Origin: Alphaproteobacteria bacterium
GTDB lineage: Bacteria > Pseudomonadota > Alphaproteobacteria > UBA8366
NCBI GenBank assembly: GCA_028281325.1
Contig: JANQKC010000026.1
Location: forward strand, 124,001-188,000
Reading direction: 5' to 3'
Length of the DNA: 64,000 nucleotides
A program made the translations under genes and the position numbers. Below the pieces are notes generated by a model. The model searched no databases and was not told the DNA's origin. It saw only the letters and a program-made list of their open reading frames with translations. Shown piece after piece: positions 19,347 to 25,454 of this stretch (the first letter of the stretch is position 1; each line of letters starts with the position of its first letter).

Positions 19347-19841
19347 TCAGATTGCGTGACCCGGAATTGGGCAGTCGCTGCACGTCCGGACGGCGCAGAG
19401 GCGACAAATGCGGTGTTTTGCCATTTCGGTTTCCGGCAGGTTCGTCAGAACCTTCGCGAGTAACTCACCGAGAACAAGCCGCTCGTCAGCGGTGAGACCC
19501 TTGAGGGCCGCCTCCAGCGTATCGAGACGGCGGTCCATCAACCGCTGACGTAGCTTGCCGCCCTTTGGCGTTAGATGCAGTGCTACCGCGCGGCCATCGG
19601 CGGCCTTGCGCCGCTCCACAAGGCCGTCCTCCGCCAGCCGGTCGATCAAACGCACGGTGCCGGGATGTGAAAGATCGAGAACCTGGCGGAGAATTTCGAC
19701 AGTGAGACCCGGGGCATAACCGAGCACGACGATCGCCGCGGCTGTTTCACCGGAGCGACCGAAAGTGTTTTTCATCCCGGACCTGATCCGGTCGGTGATT
19801 GCGAGGGCAAGCGCACCAAGCAAGTTCGTCGTACGGTCCAT
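19347..19841 (-). CDS. MarR-family regulator with Cys-rich C-terminal tail
   Basis: The 164-residue winged-helix protein carries LTVEILRQVLDLSHPGTVRLIDRLAEDGLVERRKAADGRAVALHLT (helix-turn-helix plus wing, about residues 47-93) in MarR order. The C-terminus has a CRLCAVRTCSDC cluster (CxxC-x4-CxxC) that could bind zinc or sense redox state. Longer starts at 19865 and 19910 exist; the 19910 start lies inside the palindrome at 19886-19922, so the short start MDRTTNLLGALALA, which matches relatives, is preferred. It is divergent from the SnoaL/DUF3237 pair and very likely represses them and itself. Confidence 0.87.
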   Translation of the reverse strand: MDRTTNLLGALALAITDRIRSGMKNTFGRSGETAAAIVVLGYAPGLTVEILRQVLDLSHPGTVRLIDRLAEDGLVERRKAADGRAVALHLTPKGGKLRQRLMDRRLDTLEAALKGLTADERLVLGELLAKVLTNLPETEMAKHRICRLCAVRTCSDCPIPGHAI

Positions 19842-19885
19842 GCCGGCAATGTATGCGCGCCGCATAAATCCTGCAATTGAAGGAT

Positions 19886-19922
19886 TGACGAATATATATG
19901 CGTCATGCATATATATTCGTCA
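19886..19922. promoter_or_regulatory. MarR operator with embedded divergent promoters
   Basis: Perfect 16-bp arms TGACGAATATATATGC and GCATATATATTCGTCA flank a 5-base spacer, GTCAT. Rightward, TTGACG at 19885-19890 and CATATA at 19908-19913 are 17 bases apart, like a sigma-70 promoter; the symmetry gives a similar leftward arrangement. A dimeric MarR bound here would block both promoters. The 5' untranslated regions this predicts are short for both the MarR gene and the gene at 19947. Confidence 0.85.
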
Positions 19923-19946
19923 GGTTTGGCTAGTCGAGGTCCAGCT

Positions 19947-20444
19947 ATGACCCCCGAACGCATGCATGAACTCGCCGCCGGATTGGGCGTCGCCAAGAAC
20001 CGGCAGGATGTCGCTGCCGCCCTCACTTTCATGCACGACGATATCGAACTGACCGCACCTGCCTGGGGCGCGATCGCCCGTGGGAAGGAAGAAAATGAGG
20101 CTCTGCTCACGCATTTCTTCGCCAACTATCCGGATTACGAAGTGAGCTTCGAAGGTCACGTTGCCGATGGTGAAATTTTCGTCGGTTGGGGCACGGTTCG
20201 CATGACAATGGCTGCCGAATCGAGCGATGCGAGCGGCATGTCGCCCAACGGGCGCCTGATCGCGATCCCGGTGACGATCCGAATGACCTTCAAGGACGAC
20301 CTGATCGCAACCGAGCATTTCATGTGCGATCTGGCGCAGATCGCCGCCCAGTCCGGCATTTCCATTGACGGTATGTGGAAAAACGTATTCGGCGCGTCGC
20401 GGACGTTAACAACGGCGTCAGGAAGAGAAATCAAAATTGATTAA
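19947..20444 (+). CDS. SnoaL-like (NTF2-fold) protein
   Basis: The 165-residue soluble protein has the small alpha+beta cone fold pattern: MTPERMHELAAGLGVAKNRQ, ALTFMHDDIELTAPAWGAI with the family's early Asp/Glu pair, and GHVADGEIFVGWGTVRMTM. The central IAIPVTIRMTFKDDLIATEHFMCDL strand pair resembles the SnoaL/polyketide cyclase-like ester cyclases. GAGG sits eight bases ahead of the ATG at 19947. The frame upstream to 19905 lies in the operator and is rejected. It is the first gene under MarR control and overlaps the next gene by eight bases. Confidence 0.8.
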   Translation: MTPERMHELAAGLGVAKNRQDVAAALTFMHDDIELTAPAWGAIARGKEENEALLTHFFANYPDYEVSFEGHVADGEIFVGWGTVRMTMAAESSDASGMSPNGRLIAIPVTIRMTFKDDLIATEHFMCDLAQIAAQSGISIDGMWKNVFGASRTLTTASGREIKID

Positions 20445-20955
20445 CAGCCTGAAATCAACTGCGGCGGATTGGGACGCGGACAGCCCGCCCCGTCTCGAGT
20501 TCCTGTTTGAGGCGCGCGTGAAGCTTCACCTTCCGGCCATGAATGTCGGACCGATGTCCGACGGCAACCGCGTGATCTTCCTGGTGAAGGGCGGCACTTT
20601 CGAAGGGCCTCACCTGCACGGACGCGTGGTACCGGACTCGGGCGCGGACTGGATTCGCATCCGCCCGGACGGAACGGGCGTACTGGACGTGCGCTTCTGC
20701 CTGGAAACGCATGACAACGCCTTGCTGTACCTTCATTGGAAAGGCCGGTTCTGGTCAGCGCCGGAAGACGCCGAATATGCGCTCGATGTTGAGAAACCGG
20801 ACGATCCGGCGAACGCATGGCGCTATTATTTTCGCGCGGCGCCGCAATTTGAAACCGGTGATCCGCGCTATGCGTGGCTCAACAACATTATCGCCGTAAC
20901 CAAATCCAGAACCGGCGACGGCGGCCCCATCCATCGTTTCTTCGCCGTTGCGTGA
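20437..20955 (+). CDS. DUF3237 family protein (TTG start)
   Basis: The 172-residue protein has the DUF3237 pattern: LEFLFEARVKLHLPAMNVGP, then GGTFEGPHLHGRVVPDSGADW, IRPDGTGVLDVRFCLETHDNALL and the C-terminal YAWLNNIIAVTKSR. It is a soluble beta-barrel of unknown activity, often found beside catabolic or cyclase-like enzymes. Translation starts at TTG, overlapping the preceding stop by eight bases, with AGGAAGAG upstream, so the two are coupled. Co-regulation by the MarR operator suggests a response to an aromatic or phenolic compound, but that is inference. Confidence 0.82.
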   Translation: MINSLKSTAADWDADSPPRLEFLFEARVKLHLPAMNVGPMSDGNRVIFLVKGGTFEGPHLHGRVVPDSGADWIRIRPDGTGVLDVRFCLETHDNALLYLHWKGRFWSAPEDAEYALDVEKPDDPANAWRYYFRAAPQFETGDPRYAWLNNIIAVTKSRTGDGGPIHRFFAVA

Positions 20956-21130: not shown

Positions 21131-21694
21131 ATGTATGAAACCAAAGCGCTGGATGAGAGAACCTGGCCGGATTTCGCGCGTCTGGTCGAATCGAACAACG
21201 GCGTCTGGGGCGGATGCTGGTGCATGTGGTACCACGGGAAGGACGCAAGCGCAGACGACTCTCCAGCTCAGAAGCGCAAGGCGAAAGAATGCCTCGTTCG
21301 CGAAGGCCGGGCGCATGCCGCGCTTGTATTCGAGGGGAAGCAGTGCGTGGGCTGGTGCCAATTCGGATCGCCAGAGGAGCTTCCGCGAATCCATAATCAG
21401 CGTGCCTATCTGGCGACCGATCCGACGTTACCTGACTGGCGGATCACCTGCTTCTTTTCAGGTAAGGGACATCGCGGCAACGGCGTCGCGTCGGTCGCAT
21501 TGAAAGGTGCAATTGAGCAAATCAGGGCGTTAGGCGGTGGGCGCGTCGAAGCGTTCCCGGAAAACACCGAGGGCCGAAAGCCCTCGTCTGCATTCCTTTT
21601 CAACGGCGCCCTGTCCATGTTCGAACGACACGGTTTCGAGCGATCAAGACAGATCGGGAAGCACAAGTGGGTGGTAACCAGGATCATCAAGTGA
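21131..21694 (+). CDS. GNAT-family N-acetyltransferase
   Basis: The 187-residue protein begins MYETKALDERTWPDFARLV and has GVWGGCWCMWYHGKDA near residue 25, a pattern of one GNAT subgroup. The acetyl-CoA pyrophosphate loop is ITCFFSGKGHRGNGVASVAL (about residues 104-123; Q/R-x-x-G-x-G/A), and the C-terminal FNGALSMFERHGFERSRQI gives the usual beta-5/alpha-4 end. The frame is open back to 20948, but the ATG at 21131 has AGAAGG and starts at the fold boundary. The acceptor substrate is unknown. 175 bases separate it from the DUF3237 gene, so it may have its own promoter. Confidence 0.85.
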   Translation: MYETKALDERTWPDFARLVESNNGVWGGCWCMWYHGKDASADDSPAQKRKAKECLVREGRAHAALVFEGKQCVGWCQFGSPEELPRIHNQRAYLATDPTLPDWRITCFFSGKGHRGNGVASVALKGAIEQIRALGGGRVEAFPENTEGRKPSSAFLFNGALSMFERHGFERSRQIGKHKWVVTRIIK

Positions 21695-21907: not shown

Positions 21908-23356
21908 ATGGCCGAATTCGATCTGATCATCCGCGGCGGCACCGTCGCAACCGCATCCGATACGGTGCAATGCGACGTCGGAATCCGGAACGGCAAGGTC
22001 GTCGCCCTGGCCGACTCCCTCGACGACGGGGCAGAGGTCATCGACGCGTCCGGCAAGCTGGTGCTCCCCGGCGGGATCGACAGCCATTGCCACATCGACC
22101 AGCCGGGCTCGTCCGGGGTGGAATCAGCGGATGATTTCGAATCCGGCAGTATCTCGGCGGCCTGCGGCGGGACAACGACCATCATTCCCTTCGCCGCACA
22201 ATACCGGGGCCAATCGCTGCGCGCCGTGGTCGACGACTATCACAGCCGCGCGCGCGGCAAGGCGGTCATCGACTACGCCTTCCACCTCATCATCTCCGAC
22301 CCGACCGATCAGGTGCTGGGGCAGGACCTGCCCGCACTGATCCGCGAAGGCCATACGTCGTTCAAGGTCTACATGACCTATGACGCCTTGAAGCTGGACG
22401 ATTCGCAGATGCTCAAGGTGCTGTCGACCGCGCGGCGCGAGGGCGCGATGGTCATGGTCCATGCGGAAAACCATGACGTGATCAGTTGGCTGAGCGAACA
22501 GTTGGTCGCCGCCGGCCATGTCGAGCCGAAATACCACGCCGTGTCGCATGCCGCCCCGGCGGAACGCGAGGCGACCCACCGCGCGATCACCCTGGCCGAG
22601 ATCATCGACCTGCCGATGCTGATCGTCCATGTCTCGGGCCGCGAGGCGATCGACGAGATCGCCAAGGCGCGCCAGAAGGGGTTGCGCATCCATGGCGAAA
22701 CCTGCCCGCAATACCTGTTCCTGACCGCCGACGACCTGGACCGGCCGGGCTTCGAGGGCGCGAAATACATCTGCAGCCCGCCGCCGCGCGACGCCGCCAA
22801 CCAGGAGTTCGTCTGGCGCGGGATTGAGACGGGCACGCTGGACGTGTTCTCCTCGGACCACGCGCCCTATCGGTTCAACGACCCGGAAGGCAAGAAGAAC
22901 CATGGCGAGAACGCGCCCTTCACCAAGGTGCCGAACGGCGTGCCCGGCATCGAGATCCGCCTGCCGATGCTGTTCTCCGAAGGCGTCGGCAAGCAGCGTA
23001 TCTCGCTGAACAAGTTCGTCGACCTCACCGCAACCAACCCGGCGAAAATCTACGGCCTGTATCCGCGCAAGGGGACGATCGCTGTCGGCGCGGACGCCGA
23101 TATCGCGATCTGGGATCCGGACAAACGCGTCACCATCTCGATCGACATGCTGCACGACAATTTGGATTACACGCCGTATGAGGGCCGCGAGATCACCGGA
23201 TATCCCATTTTGACCTTGTCGCGCGGCGAGGTGGTGTGGGACGGTAAGGATCCCAAGGGCGATGCCGGCCGCGGCCAATTCCTGGAATGCGACCTGCCCA
23301 ACCCGCCGAAATCCGGCGGCCCCGCGATTCACGGCGTCCACCACGCCACCGAGTAA
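21908..23356 (+). CDS. hydA: Dihydropyrimidinase / D-hydantoinase
   Basis: The 482-residue protein is a cyclic-amide hydrolase of the amidohydrolase superfamily. VLPGGIDSHCHIDQPG near residue 60 gives the first two metal His; GHTSFKVYMTYD near 150 contains the Lys carbamylated in active enzymes. AMVMVHAENHD, MLIVHVSGREA and LDVFSSDHAPYRF carry the remaining metal ligands. It should open 5-substituted hydantoins or dihydropyrimidines to N-carbamoyl amino acids. The ATG at 21908 has GGAGGGA. It starts an operon with D-carbamoylase, racemase and an AtzH-like gene, which together make a complete hydantoin-to-amino-acid route. Confidence 0.94.
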   Translation: MAEFDLIIRGGTVATASDTVQCDVGIRNGKVVALADSLDDGAEVIDASGKLVLPGGIDSHCHIDQPGSSGVESADDFESGSISAACGGTTTIIPFAAQYRGQSLRAVVDDYHSRARGKAVIDYAFHLIISDPTDQVLGQDLPALIREGHTSFKVYMTYDALKLDDSQMLKVLSTARREGAMVMVHAENHDVISWLSEQLVAAGHVEPKYHAVSHAAPAEREATHRAITLAEIIDLPMLIVHVSGREAIDEIAKARQKGLRIHGETCPQYLFLTADDLDRPGFEGAKYICSPPPRDAANQEFVWRGIETGTLDVFSSDHAPYRFNDPEGKKNHGENAPFTKVPNGVPGIEIRLPMLFSEGVGKQRISLNKFVDLTATNPAKIYGLYPRKGTIAVGADADIAIWDPDKRVTISIDMLHDNLDYTPYEGREITGYPILTLSRGEVVWDGKDPKGDAGRGQFLECDLPNPPKSGGPAIHGVHHATE

Positions 23357-23403
23357 GACCGCGTCCCGGCGGTTCCATCAGTCGTTGCAGGAGGAAGTTG
23401 AGA

Positions 23404-24342
23404 ATGTCGAGAGTGGTAACCGTCGGCGCCGCGCAGATGGGTCCGATCCAACGCGCCGAAGGCCGCGCGGCGGTGATCGAACGTATGCTGGCGCTGCTGA
23501 AAAAGGCGCACGAAAAGAACTGCGACCTGGTGGTGTTCCCGGAACTGGCGCTAACCACCTTCTTTCCGCGCTGGTACATGGAGGATCAGGCGGAGGTCGA
23601 CACCTGGTTCGAATCCGCGATGCCGAGCAACGAGACGCAACCGCTGTTCACCGCCGCCAAGGAATACGGGATCGGCTTCTATCTCGGCTATGCGGAGTTG
23701 ACCGAGGAAGACGGCGCGCCGCACCGCTACAACACGGCGATCCTCGTCGACAAGGGCGGCGAGACGGTCCTCAAATACCGCAAGGTGCACCTACCCGGTC
23801 ATGATGAATACGACCCCGACCGCACGCATCAACACTTGGAGAAACGCTATTTCGAGGTGGGGAATCTGGGATTCCCGGTGGCACGCGCCATGGGCGGCGT
23901 CATGGGCATGTGCCTGTGCAACGACCGGCGCTGGCCCGAGACCTATCGCGTGATGGGGCTGCAAGGCGTCGAGATGCTGATGCTCGGCTACAACACGCCG
24001 ACGGTCAACTCGCTCTCCGACGAAGCGCCGCATCTGCGCATGTTCCACAACCACGTCACCATGCAGGCCGGCGCGTACCAGAACAGCACCTGGGTGGTCG
24101 GCGTCGCCAAGGCCGGCAACGAAGACGGTAACGACCTGATGGGCGGCAGCGTGATCATCGCGCCGTCCGGCGAGATCGTCGCGCAATGCCATACGCTGGG
24201 CGACGAGTTGATCGTCGCGGATTGCGATCTCGACGATTGCATCTTCGGGCGCGAGACGATCTTCAATTTCGCGGCGCACCGCCGCACCGAGCATTACGGG
24301 CTGATCACCGAACGCACCGGCGCGGTGCCACCGTCGGAATAA
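23404..24342 (+). CDS. N-carbamoyl-D-amino acid hydrolase, copy 1
   Basis: The 312-residue nitrilase-superfamily enzyme has the Glu-Lys-Cys triad in family context: VVFPELALTTFFPRWYMED near residue 45, KYRKVHLPGHDEY near 126 and GMCLCNDRRWPETYR near 172. These segments are characteristic of D-carbamoylases, which hydrolyse N-carbamoyl-D-amino acids to D-amino acids, CO2 and ammonia. The start MSRVVTVGAAQMG at 23404 has GGAGGAAG. It lies 47 bases after the hydantoinase. A paralogue sits at 29546 on the other strand. Confidence 0.93.
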   Translation: MSRVVTVGAAQMGPIQRAEGRAAVIERMLALLKKAHEKNCDLVVFPELALTTFFPRWYMEDQAEVDTWFESAMPSNETQPLFTAAKEYGIGFYLGYAELTEEDGAPHRYNTAILVDKGGETVLKYRKVHLPGHDEYDPDRTHQHLEKRYFEVGNLGFPVARAMGGVMGMCLCNDRRWPETYRVMGLQGVEMLMLGYNTPTVNSLSDEAPHLRMFHNHVTMQAGAYQNSTWVVGVAKAGNEDGNDLMGGSVIIAPSGEIVAQCHTLGDELIVADCDLDDCIFGRETIFNFAAHRRTEHYGLITERTGAVPPSE

Positions 24343-24348
24343 ACCGCC

Positions 24349-25017
24349 ATGGGCAATCGTATCGCCGTCATCAACCCGAACTCCTCGACCGGCGTCACCG
24401 ACGACATCGACCGTGCGCTCGACCCGCTGCGCAGCGACGGTGGCGAAACGATCGATTGCCTGACCCTCGCCGACGGCCCGCCCGGGATCGAGAGCCAGCG
24501 CGACGTGGACGGCGTGGTGGTCCCGCTCTGCGATCTGGTCAAATCGCAGGACAACGCCGCCTCGGCCTTCGTGATCGCCTGTTTCTCCGATCCGGGACTG
24601 CATGCCGTGCGGGAAACCACGGACAAGCCCGTCTTCGGCATTGCCGAATCGGGATTGCTGACCGCGATGACGCTGGGCGACCGTGTCGGGCTGATCGCGA
24701 TCCTCGCCTCGGGCGCGGCGCGGCATGCCCGCTATATCCGGGCGCTGGGAATCGAGAGCCGTTTCGCCGGCGAAGCGGCGGTCGGGCTCGGCGTTACCGA
24801 ATTGGCCGACGACTCCCGGACACTGGCGCGCATGATCGAAACCGGACAGCAGCTGCGCGACGACCATGGCGCCGACGTGCTGGTCATGGGCTGCGCCGGC
24901 ATGGCGCGCTACCGCGGCACATTGGAGGATACGCTCGGCCTGCCGGTGGTGGACCCGACGCAAGCCGCGGTCGGCATGGCGATCACCGCCGTGCGGCTCG
25001 GCTATCGCACGACATAG
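24349..25017 (+). CDS. hyuE: Hydantoin racemase (Asp/Glu racemase family)
   Basis: The 222-residue protein begins MGNRIAVINPNSSTGVTDDI, the HyuE/Asp-Glu racemase opening, and has the two catalytic cysteines on the two halves: FVIACFSDPGLHAVRE near residue 79 and VLVMGCAGMARYRG near 183. VFGIAESGLLTAM is also conserved. It should racemise 5-substituted hydantoins, letting the D-specific pathway consume both isomers. It starts six bases after the carbamoylase stop. Confidence 0.9.
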   Translation: MGNRIAVINPNSSTGVTDDIDRALDPLRSDGGETIDCLTLADGPPGIESQRDVDGVVVPLCDLVKSQDNAASAFVIACFSDPGLHAVRETTDKPVFGIAESGLLTAMTLGDRVGLIAILASGAARHARYIRALGIESRFAGEAAVGLGVTELADDSRTLARMIETGQQLRDDHGADVLVMGCAGMARYRGTLEDTLGLPVVDPTQAAVGMAITAVRLGYRTT

Positions 25018-25049
25018 AGACTCAACAAAAGACTGGAAGGAAGCGCATC

Positions 25050-25454
25050 GTGGACGACCGAACGCCGAACATCCCCGAGGTGGTGGCCGAAATCAGCGAA
25101 ATCTTCGAACGCTATGAACAGGCGTTGATCGACAAGAACGTGGACGTGCTCGACGCGACTTTCTGGGATAGCCCGCACACGATCCGCTACGCGCTGCACG
25201 AGAACGGCTACGGCTTCGAAGCGATCCACGGCCACCGAGTCGCCCGCGCGCCGGGGCCGGGCATCAAGGAGAAACGCATCCGTCTGGAAATCCTGACCCT
25301 CGGCCGCGACTTCGCGACGACGAATCTGGAATTCAAGGTCCGTGGCCGCGACACGATCGGCCGACAGAGCCAGACCTTCGTGCGCTTCCCCGATGTCGGC
25401 TGGAAGGTCGTGGCCGCCCATGTCTCGACGATGGAAGGCGACCCGCTCTGGTAG
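25050..25454 (+). CDS. AtzH/HpxZ-like NTF2-fold protein (GTG start)
   Basis: The 134-residue protein reads VAEISEIFERYEQALIDKN, then LDATFWDSPHTIRYALHENGYGFEAI, RIRLEILTLGRDFATTNLEF and SQTFVRFPDVGWKVVAAHVS, the pattern of the AtzH-like/DUF3225 group of SnoaL-fold proteins. Relatives accompany ureide, oxalurate and cyanuric-acid amidases. The GTG at 25050 is preceded by GAAGGAA; no in-frame ATG fits the domain. It ends the hydantoin operon four bases before repeat copy 2. It may assist the amidohydrolases or process a side product. Confidence 0.85.
   Translation: MDDRTPNIPEVVAEISEIFERYEQALIDKNVDVLDATFWDSPHTIRYALHENGYGFEAIHGHRVARAPGPGIKEKRIRLEILTLGRDFATTNLEFKVRGRDTIGRQSQTFVRFPDVGWKVVAAHVSTMEGDPLW

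Follow-up and report, generated by a model that had tools for sequence, protein, structure and literature searches.

Gene organization and relatives of the locus

The window, the whole 64,000-nucleotide stretch of DNA that was analysed, contains a gene for a MarR-family regulator on the minus strand and genes for a SnoaL-like and a DUF3237 protein on the plus strand, in the divergent layout described by the first-pass annotation. The genes and the features between them are:

19347..19841, minus strand: marR, a 164-aa MarR-family regulator with its ATG at 19841 (MarR_2, 3.3e-09)
19848..19876, minus strand: predicted marR promoter (TTGCAG 19871-19876, 17-nt spacer, TACATT 19848-19853)
19852..19866, no strand: O2 core site TATGC-N5-GCATA, exact in 14 of 16 loci, with one mismatch in L005 and L008
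19885..19915, plus strand: predicted target promoter (TTGACG 19885-19890, with CATATA 19908-19913 after a 17-nt spacer or TATATA 19910-19915 after 19 nt)
19886..19922, no strand: 37-bp perfect palindrome (16-nt arms around a 5-nt spacer) that extends O1 in a lineage-specific manner
19897..19911, no strand: O1 core site TATGCGTCATGCATA, inside the 37-mer, exact in 15 of 16 loci, with one mismatch in L013
19947..20444, plus strand: SnoaL-like protein, first predicted target (SnoaL_2, 1e-14)
20437..20955, plus strand: DUF3237 protein, second predicted target (2.4e-37), overlapping the SnoaL end, with a TTG start in the ORF list
21131..21694, plus strand: GNAT acetyltransferase, a recurrent cluster member and possible further target (also in L008, L018, L019 and L067)

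Next to the divergon, at 21908-25454, lie genes for a dihydropyrimidinase, a carbon-nitrogen hydrolase and an Asp/Glu/hydantoin racemase, together with a further SnoaL-looking frame that we take to be AtzH-like. Judged from the predicted proteins, this would be a hydantoin or ureide breakdown cluster. The dihydropyrimidinase, the hydrolase and the racemase have no match in the locus stretches of the relatives.

A scan of species genomes returned 18 loci. Fifteen of the MarR proteins are 77-92% identical to that of the window, two (from Leisingera) are 47-48% identical, and one, which lacks the tail described below, is 38% identical over part of its length. The 15 close relatives, which are not independent of each other, come from records named Rhodobiaceae, Hyphomonadaceae, Sphingomonadaceae, Kordiimonas, Halieaceae, Exilibacterium and other Proteobacteria. 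One of them (L005) is from a MAG labelled Anaerolineae; its flanking genes are for the most part those of the alphaproteobacterial MAG L006, and the label is thus probably a binning error. The 10 other genomes available from the window's own family gave no match at E 1e-20. Relatives of the window MarR (P0001) are uncommon: at E 1e-12 they occur in 15 of 385 genomes of the class, and with the profile at E 1e-20 in nine of 397 genomes of the phylum, the own genome being counted in both. This patchy presence suggests horizontal spread.

The regulator and its cysteine tail

The winged-helix domain of the regulator is recognized by PF12802 (37.2 bits, cut-off 27), and PF01047 scores 21.7 bits, under its cut-off of 24.6. 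None of the 10 NCBIfam models listed reaches its cut-off, those for the named equivalogs (MarR, SlyA, HpaR, OhrR, MprA, FabT, BilQ) included; the best match is BilQ with 36.4 bits against 125. The protein ends in CRLCAVRTCSDCPIPGHAI. The CxxC-x4-CxxC tail noticed at first is present as CRLCAVRTCSDCP (CRLC-x4-CxxCP, residues 146-158) and contains the only four cysteines that the protein has.

An alignment of 27 proteins, 30-91% identical to the window MarR, has 13 invariant columns, six of which lie in the tail (C146, R147, C149, C154, C157 and P158). The tail is thus invariant in 27 of 27 proteins, a result that could be favoured by picking the set by similarity to the window MarR. We refer to the subfamily with CRxC-x4-Cx(2-4)CP at the C terminus as Cys4-tailed MarRs (Cys4-MarRs), a name coined here. 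The tail is found in none of 30 control MarR loci from the same class, which were returned among many more matches. Among the best 60 of 118 solved structures none covers the tail, all of them ending at or before profile position 142 of 167, and a structure prediction of the regulator from 18 close sequences, with a disordered tail, is too poor to be of use (pLDDT 50). From the sequence pattern, the tail cysteines most likely hold a metal, with zinc preferred and an iron-sulphur cluster less likely. The proposal of a metal or redox input through the tail fits the comparison.

Beyond the clade, 182 plasmid records contain P0001 relatives, none of which reaches 60% identity and a minority of which were checked for the tail. 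A search of viral contigs returned one member, on a contig of 23,392 bases. The own genome carries a second, distant Cys4-tailed MarR gene on contig 15 (L078:5977-7114), followed by a gene for a hexapeptide-repeat protein; a similar-looking pair is present in L075. A MarR paralogue on a Klebsiella plasmid (L044:2713-3306) keeps only the first CxxC of the tail.

The palindrome and the paired core sites

The perfect palindrome reported by the first-pass annotation is confirmed, with arms at 19886-19901 and 19907-19922 that are 100% complementary and a 5-nt spacer, GTCAT. With gaps of up to 10, it is the sole perfect inverted repeat in the window with arms longer than 10; the next-best have arms of 10, and first-order shuffles of the window (n=12) reach at most 11. 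A palindrome search allowing three mismatches gave one match in the window and none in 100 shuffles. In the relatives, perfect arms centred on O1 measure 12 nt in L018 and 7-8 nt in L008, L009, L010, L011 and L014; in the remaining ones, none reaching 7 nt was found. As none of the 15 relatives has arms as long and perfect as those of the window, the 37-mer is O1 with a local extension, and the special function ascribed to its length is not borne out. Its perfection may stem from selection or from replication or repair. A reading as a hairpin or attenuator was set aside because the palindrome ends close to the predicted target start.

The element conserved across the relatives is a 15-bp core, TATGC-N5-GCATA, which occurs twice in each of the 16 loci, the window among them, when these are aligned on the ATG of marR. 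O1 begins at -68 to -71 relative to the ATG. O2, which had been missed, begins 25 bp before the ATG (27 bp in L013) and falls between the two hexamers of the predicted marR promoter. The spacing between O1 and O2 is 43-45 bp over the 16 loci and 45 bp, centre to centre, in the window. An exact core anywhere in the 200-bp upstream region occurs in 0.35% of 2000 shuffled upstreams, and two matches with at most two mismatches occur in 3.45% of the shuffles; both are seen in 16 of 16 real loci. The own genome (5.12 Mb) has three exact cores, two at the divergon and one at C33:43924, and the same number was obtained with a reversed-pattern control.

In the marR direction, TTGNNN-N17 keeps its position in 15 of 16 loci, with O2 in the spacer, and TACATT is six bases before the ATG in 11 of 16. 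Therefore, the marR start is predicted at or next to the ATG, and the transcript is probably leaderless. The target strand has a TTGAC next to O1 in every locus except L006 (15 of 16). The hexamers after 17 nt are TATAGT, TATATT, TATTAC and TATATT in the four loci with 43-bp spacing, and CATATA or CATACG in the 45-bp loci with TTGAC, including the window. In most of the 45-bp loci, the hexamer two bases later looks better by eye. The target -10 element of the window is poor at 17-nt spacing, and TATATA requires 19 nt. A generic sigma-70 scan of the window found no promoter above threshold, so that the two promoters are predicted from comparison. Only the predicted SnoaL/DUF3237 promoter is overlapped by the 37-mer; the separate predicted marR promoter (19848-19876), which contains O2, is outside it. 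The coverage of both promoters that had been claimed for it does not hold. The idea of a MarR divergon whose target promoter contains an operator fits the comparison, and the single operator is replaced by two core sites, one in each predicted promoter. A palindromic site in both the own and the target promoter is a feature of the MarR family, seen here by sequence conservation. The two-operator architecture is well supported by these comparisons.

Distant members (L020, L021, L031-L034, L036, L041 and L042) also have two boxes by eye, some of them imperfect. L031 and L032 have a 19-bp form, TATGTGCG-N3-CGCACATA, with a second, 17-bp copy ~32 bp on, and L042 and L043 have TATG-N7-CATA twice. 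TATG-N7-CATA lies within 1.5 kb in 28 of 46 Cys4-MarR loci, compared with none of 30 other MarR loci. Subtraction of the window's clade, with all 16 of its loci counted, leaves 12 of 30. As a universal site, exact TATG-N7-CATA was rejected: within ~150 bases upstream it occurs in only nine of 30 members outside the clade (0.6% in shuffles), and the others have the 19-bp form, imperfect copies or none. The tail members L002, L037-L040 and L055-L057 have no boxes even at one mismatch.

Neighbouring genes in the clade and the subfamily

The DUF3237 domain of the window protein is clear (PF11578, 128.4 bits, cut-off 24). DUF3237 is the most constant neighbour, present in 14 of the 16 loci (window included) and absent from L018 and L019. 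A similar SnoaL gene is found in seven of 16 loci, again with the window included, and only in part in L013. Other recurrent neighbours are glyoxalase-like (L009, L015), PEP-mutase-like, MFS and GNAT genes. These counts are not independent of each other and are partly circular, because the query genes came from the loci themselves.

A gene for an O6-methylguanine-type methyltransferase (MGMT) is found in L008, L017, L018 and L019, a minority of the clade, and also in L067. The sequences from L008, L017, L018 and L067 have a PCHR motif, which we take to be the active site of this enzyme type. In L067, MarR is only 46% and DUF3237 85% identical to the window proteins; comparable genes thus go with another regulator from the subfamily. 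In L070, an AraC-methyltransferase fusion is encoded close to a further Cys4-MarR. The own genome has no close MGMT homologue at E 1e-30. Among 20 MGMT homologues, one has a Cys4-MarR within its ~3.5-kb stretch, and a further one adjoins a PEP-mutase gene in a genome that holds a Cys4-MarR. The link to MGMT becomes weaker beyond close homologues.

A DUF3237 search at E 1e-50 returned seven of 385 class genomes. Six of these, the own genome among them, encode a Cys4-MarR on the stretch that carries DUF3237. The remaining one (L138:5279-6462) has its DUF3237 gene, whose product is 62% identical to that of the window, 68 bp downstream of an Ada_Zn_binding and AraC-type gene with equal orientation. 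In another sample from the phylum (359 genomes, some of them already in the first set), DUF3237 matches at E 1e-40 were confined to the own and the L138 genome. The DUF3237 protein, described at first as being of unknown role, can be narrowed down. In the available part of its report, PinX has a DUF3237 domain, shares 42% identity with the decarboxylase PhcG and 38% with PhcF, also a decarboxylase, and is itself predicted to be one (PMC12607616). An enzymatic role of DUF3237 is therefore likely by analogy.

Other subfamily members have different neighbours. DUF417 genes lie within 1.5 kb in seven of 46 Cys4-MarR loci (the query's own locus included) and in none of 30 control MarR loci, and MsrA, MsrB or OsmC genes are found near some members. 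The window MarR has no DUF417 match within 1.5 kb. The Cys4-MarR genes of L044 (Klebsiella plasmid, typed conjugative), L049 (Sphingomonas plasmid) and L072 stand beside MsrA, OsmC-hydrolase, DUF417 or thiosulphate-transporter genes, and L049 also has a ZIP zinc transporter gene next to its Cys4-MarR. For E. coli CFT073, the available part of the report names RcrB, which is a DUF417 protein, as the major defence against HOCl (PMC9600549). Because of the methyltransferase and Ada links, the DUF417, MsrA, MsrB and OsmC neighbours and the role of RcrB, the neighbours point, only by association, to thiol-reactive stress.

Proposed mechanism and alternatives

Comparison of the loci brought out both core sites, their pairing, their placement relative to the ATG and the promoter hexamers, the invariance of the tail and the recurrent neighbours. 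With moderate confidence, we propose an autorepressing MarR switch with two operators that is released by thiol-reactive attack on the tail, which is probably metal-bound. One MarR autorepressor would control the two divergent promoters through two copies of the 15-bp operator. A MarR dimer on O1, between the -35 and -10 elements of the SnoaL-DUF3237 promoter, would block transcription, and a second dimer would occupy O2, between -35 and -10 of marR's own promoter. Attack on the tail thiolates by an electrophile, an alkylating agent or an oxidant would release both operators and switch on a small detoxification or repair module. A more specific form, which is rather doubtful, takes the tail as a metal-thiolate trap, in which irreversible alkylation or oxidation of one cysteine would free the paired operators, as in the zinc site of Ada but in a repressor. 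If this were true, the Cys4-MarRs would be a class of electrophile sensors, partly carried on plasmids and with paired TATG...CATA boxes as their DNA signature, and the DUF3237, SnoaL and GNAT genes of the clade would form a new alkylation-defence module.

A possible but less probable alternative is a ligand-binding MarR with two operators, whose inducer would be a substrate or product of the DUF3237 or SnoaL protein, such as an aromatic acid, the tail being a structural metal site. MarRs commonly bind aromatic acids, and DUF3237 is the neighbour present in 14 of 16 loci. The likely enzymatic role of DUF3237 also feeds this alternative, as PinX is predicted to act in lignan breakdown and resembles PhcF and PhcG in the available part of its report (PMC12607616). 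However, the neighbours vary (SnoaL, glyoxalase, MFS, PEP-mutase) while the tail is constant in the 27 aligned proteins, and the DUF417 and Msr neighbours of other members are stress genes rather than catabolic ones. It is unlikely that the tail, with an iron-sulphur cluster or labile zinc, reports iron-sulphur or zinc status or oxygen rather than electrophiles. The four invariant cysteines and the following proline are a ligand set fit for either, and one member adjoins the ZIP transporter; however, no recurrent metal-uptake or cluster-assembly neighbour was noticed among the annotated minority of neighbour genes. That the upstream repeats encode an N-terminal extension of MarR (MHDAYIF...MRRAYIAG), with the palindrome as a by-product, is highly improbable: an open frame runs between O1 and the ATG in 14 of 16 loci, but not in L007 and L013, the distant L031 has a stop between O2 and the ATG, and the codon-position entropy over 11 ungapped loci is 0.54/0.67/0.79 upstream compared with 0.29/0.12/1.00 in the coding part.

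The subfamily is recognizable by its tail, and its site can be read from the DNA, often twice. Target genes can thereby be predicted in further Proteobacteria and on plasmids from Klebsiella and related bacteria, on which a member adjoins oxidative-damage repair genes. DUF3237 and SnoaL proteins are linked to a regulator and, at some loci, also to genes for DNA alkyl repair.

Comparison with known systems

PinX and the window protein have the DUF3237 domain in common, as far as the available part of the PinX report goes (PMC12607616). The likeness to PinX, PhcF and PhcG is by this shared domain, and no lignan gene is found among the annotated neighbours. The HOCl defence of E. coli by RcrR/RcrB and RclC is similar in its redox-inactivated repressor and through the DUF417 genes beside other Cys4-MarR members. 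However, RcrR is described as a TetR-family protein in the available part of its report (PMC9600549), and the window MarR lacks a DUF417 neighbour within 1.5 kb. The Ada alkylation response resembles the present system in its cysteine-rich regulator, in the methyltransferase genes at some loci and in the DUF3237 gene downstream of Ada_Zn_binding in L138. Ada carries a zinc site. In contrast, the window regulator is without an Ada domain (no Pfam match to Ada_Zn_binding) and is a MarR, most likely a repressor. OhrR-type thiol MarRs have the sensing cysteine near the N terminus, whereas all four cysteines of the window MarR are in the C-terminal tail.

In the general scheme of MarR divergons, a divergent neighbour is combined with palindromic promoter sites. 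The window resembles the divergons of the MarR, OhrR, HpaR and SlyA types in its MarR domain, its divergent neighbour and the palindromic sites in the predicted promoters. Divergons of this kind are already known. Literature on the tail, its context and MarR with alkylation, covered as titles and abstract beginnings with few subscription papers, yielded no Cys4-tailed MarR. Within that literature, the tail-defined subfamily, the paired sites and the neighbour links appear to be new. Compared with the known MarR-family divergons, the subfamily of the window MarR adds the invariant C-terminal CRxC-x4-Cx(2-4)CP tail.
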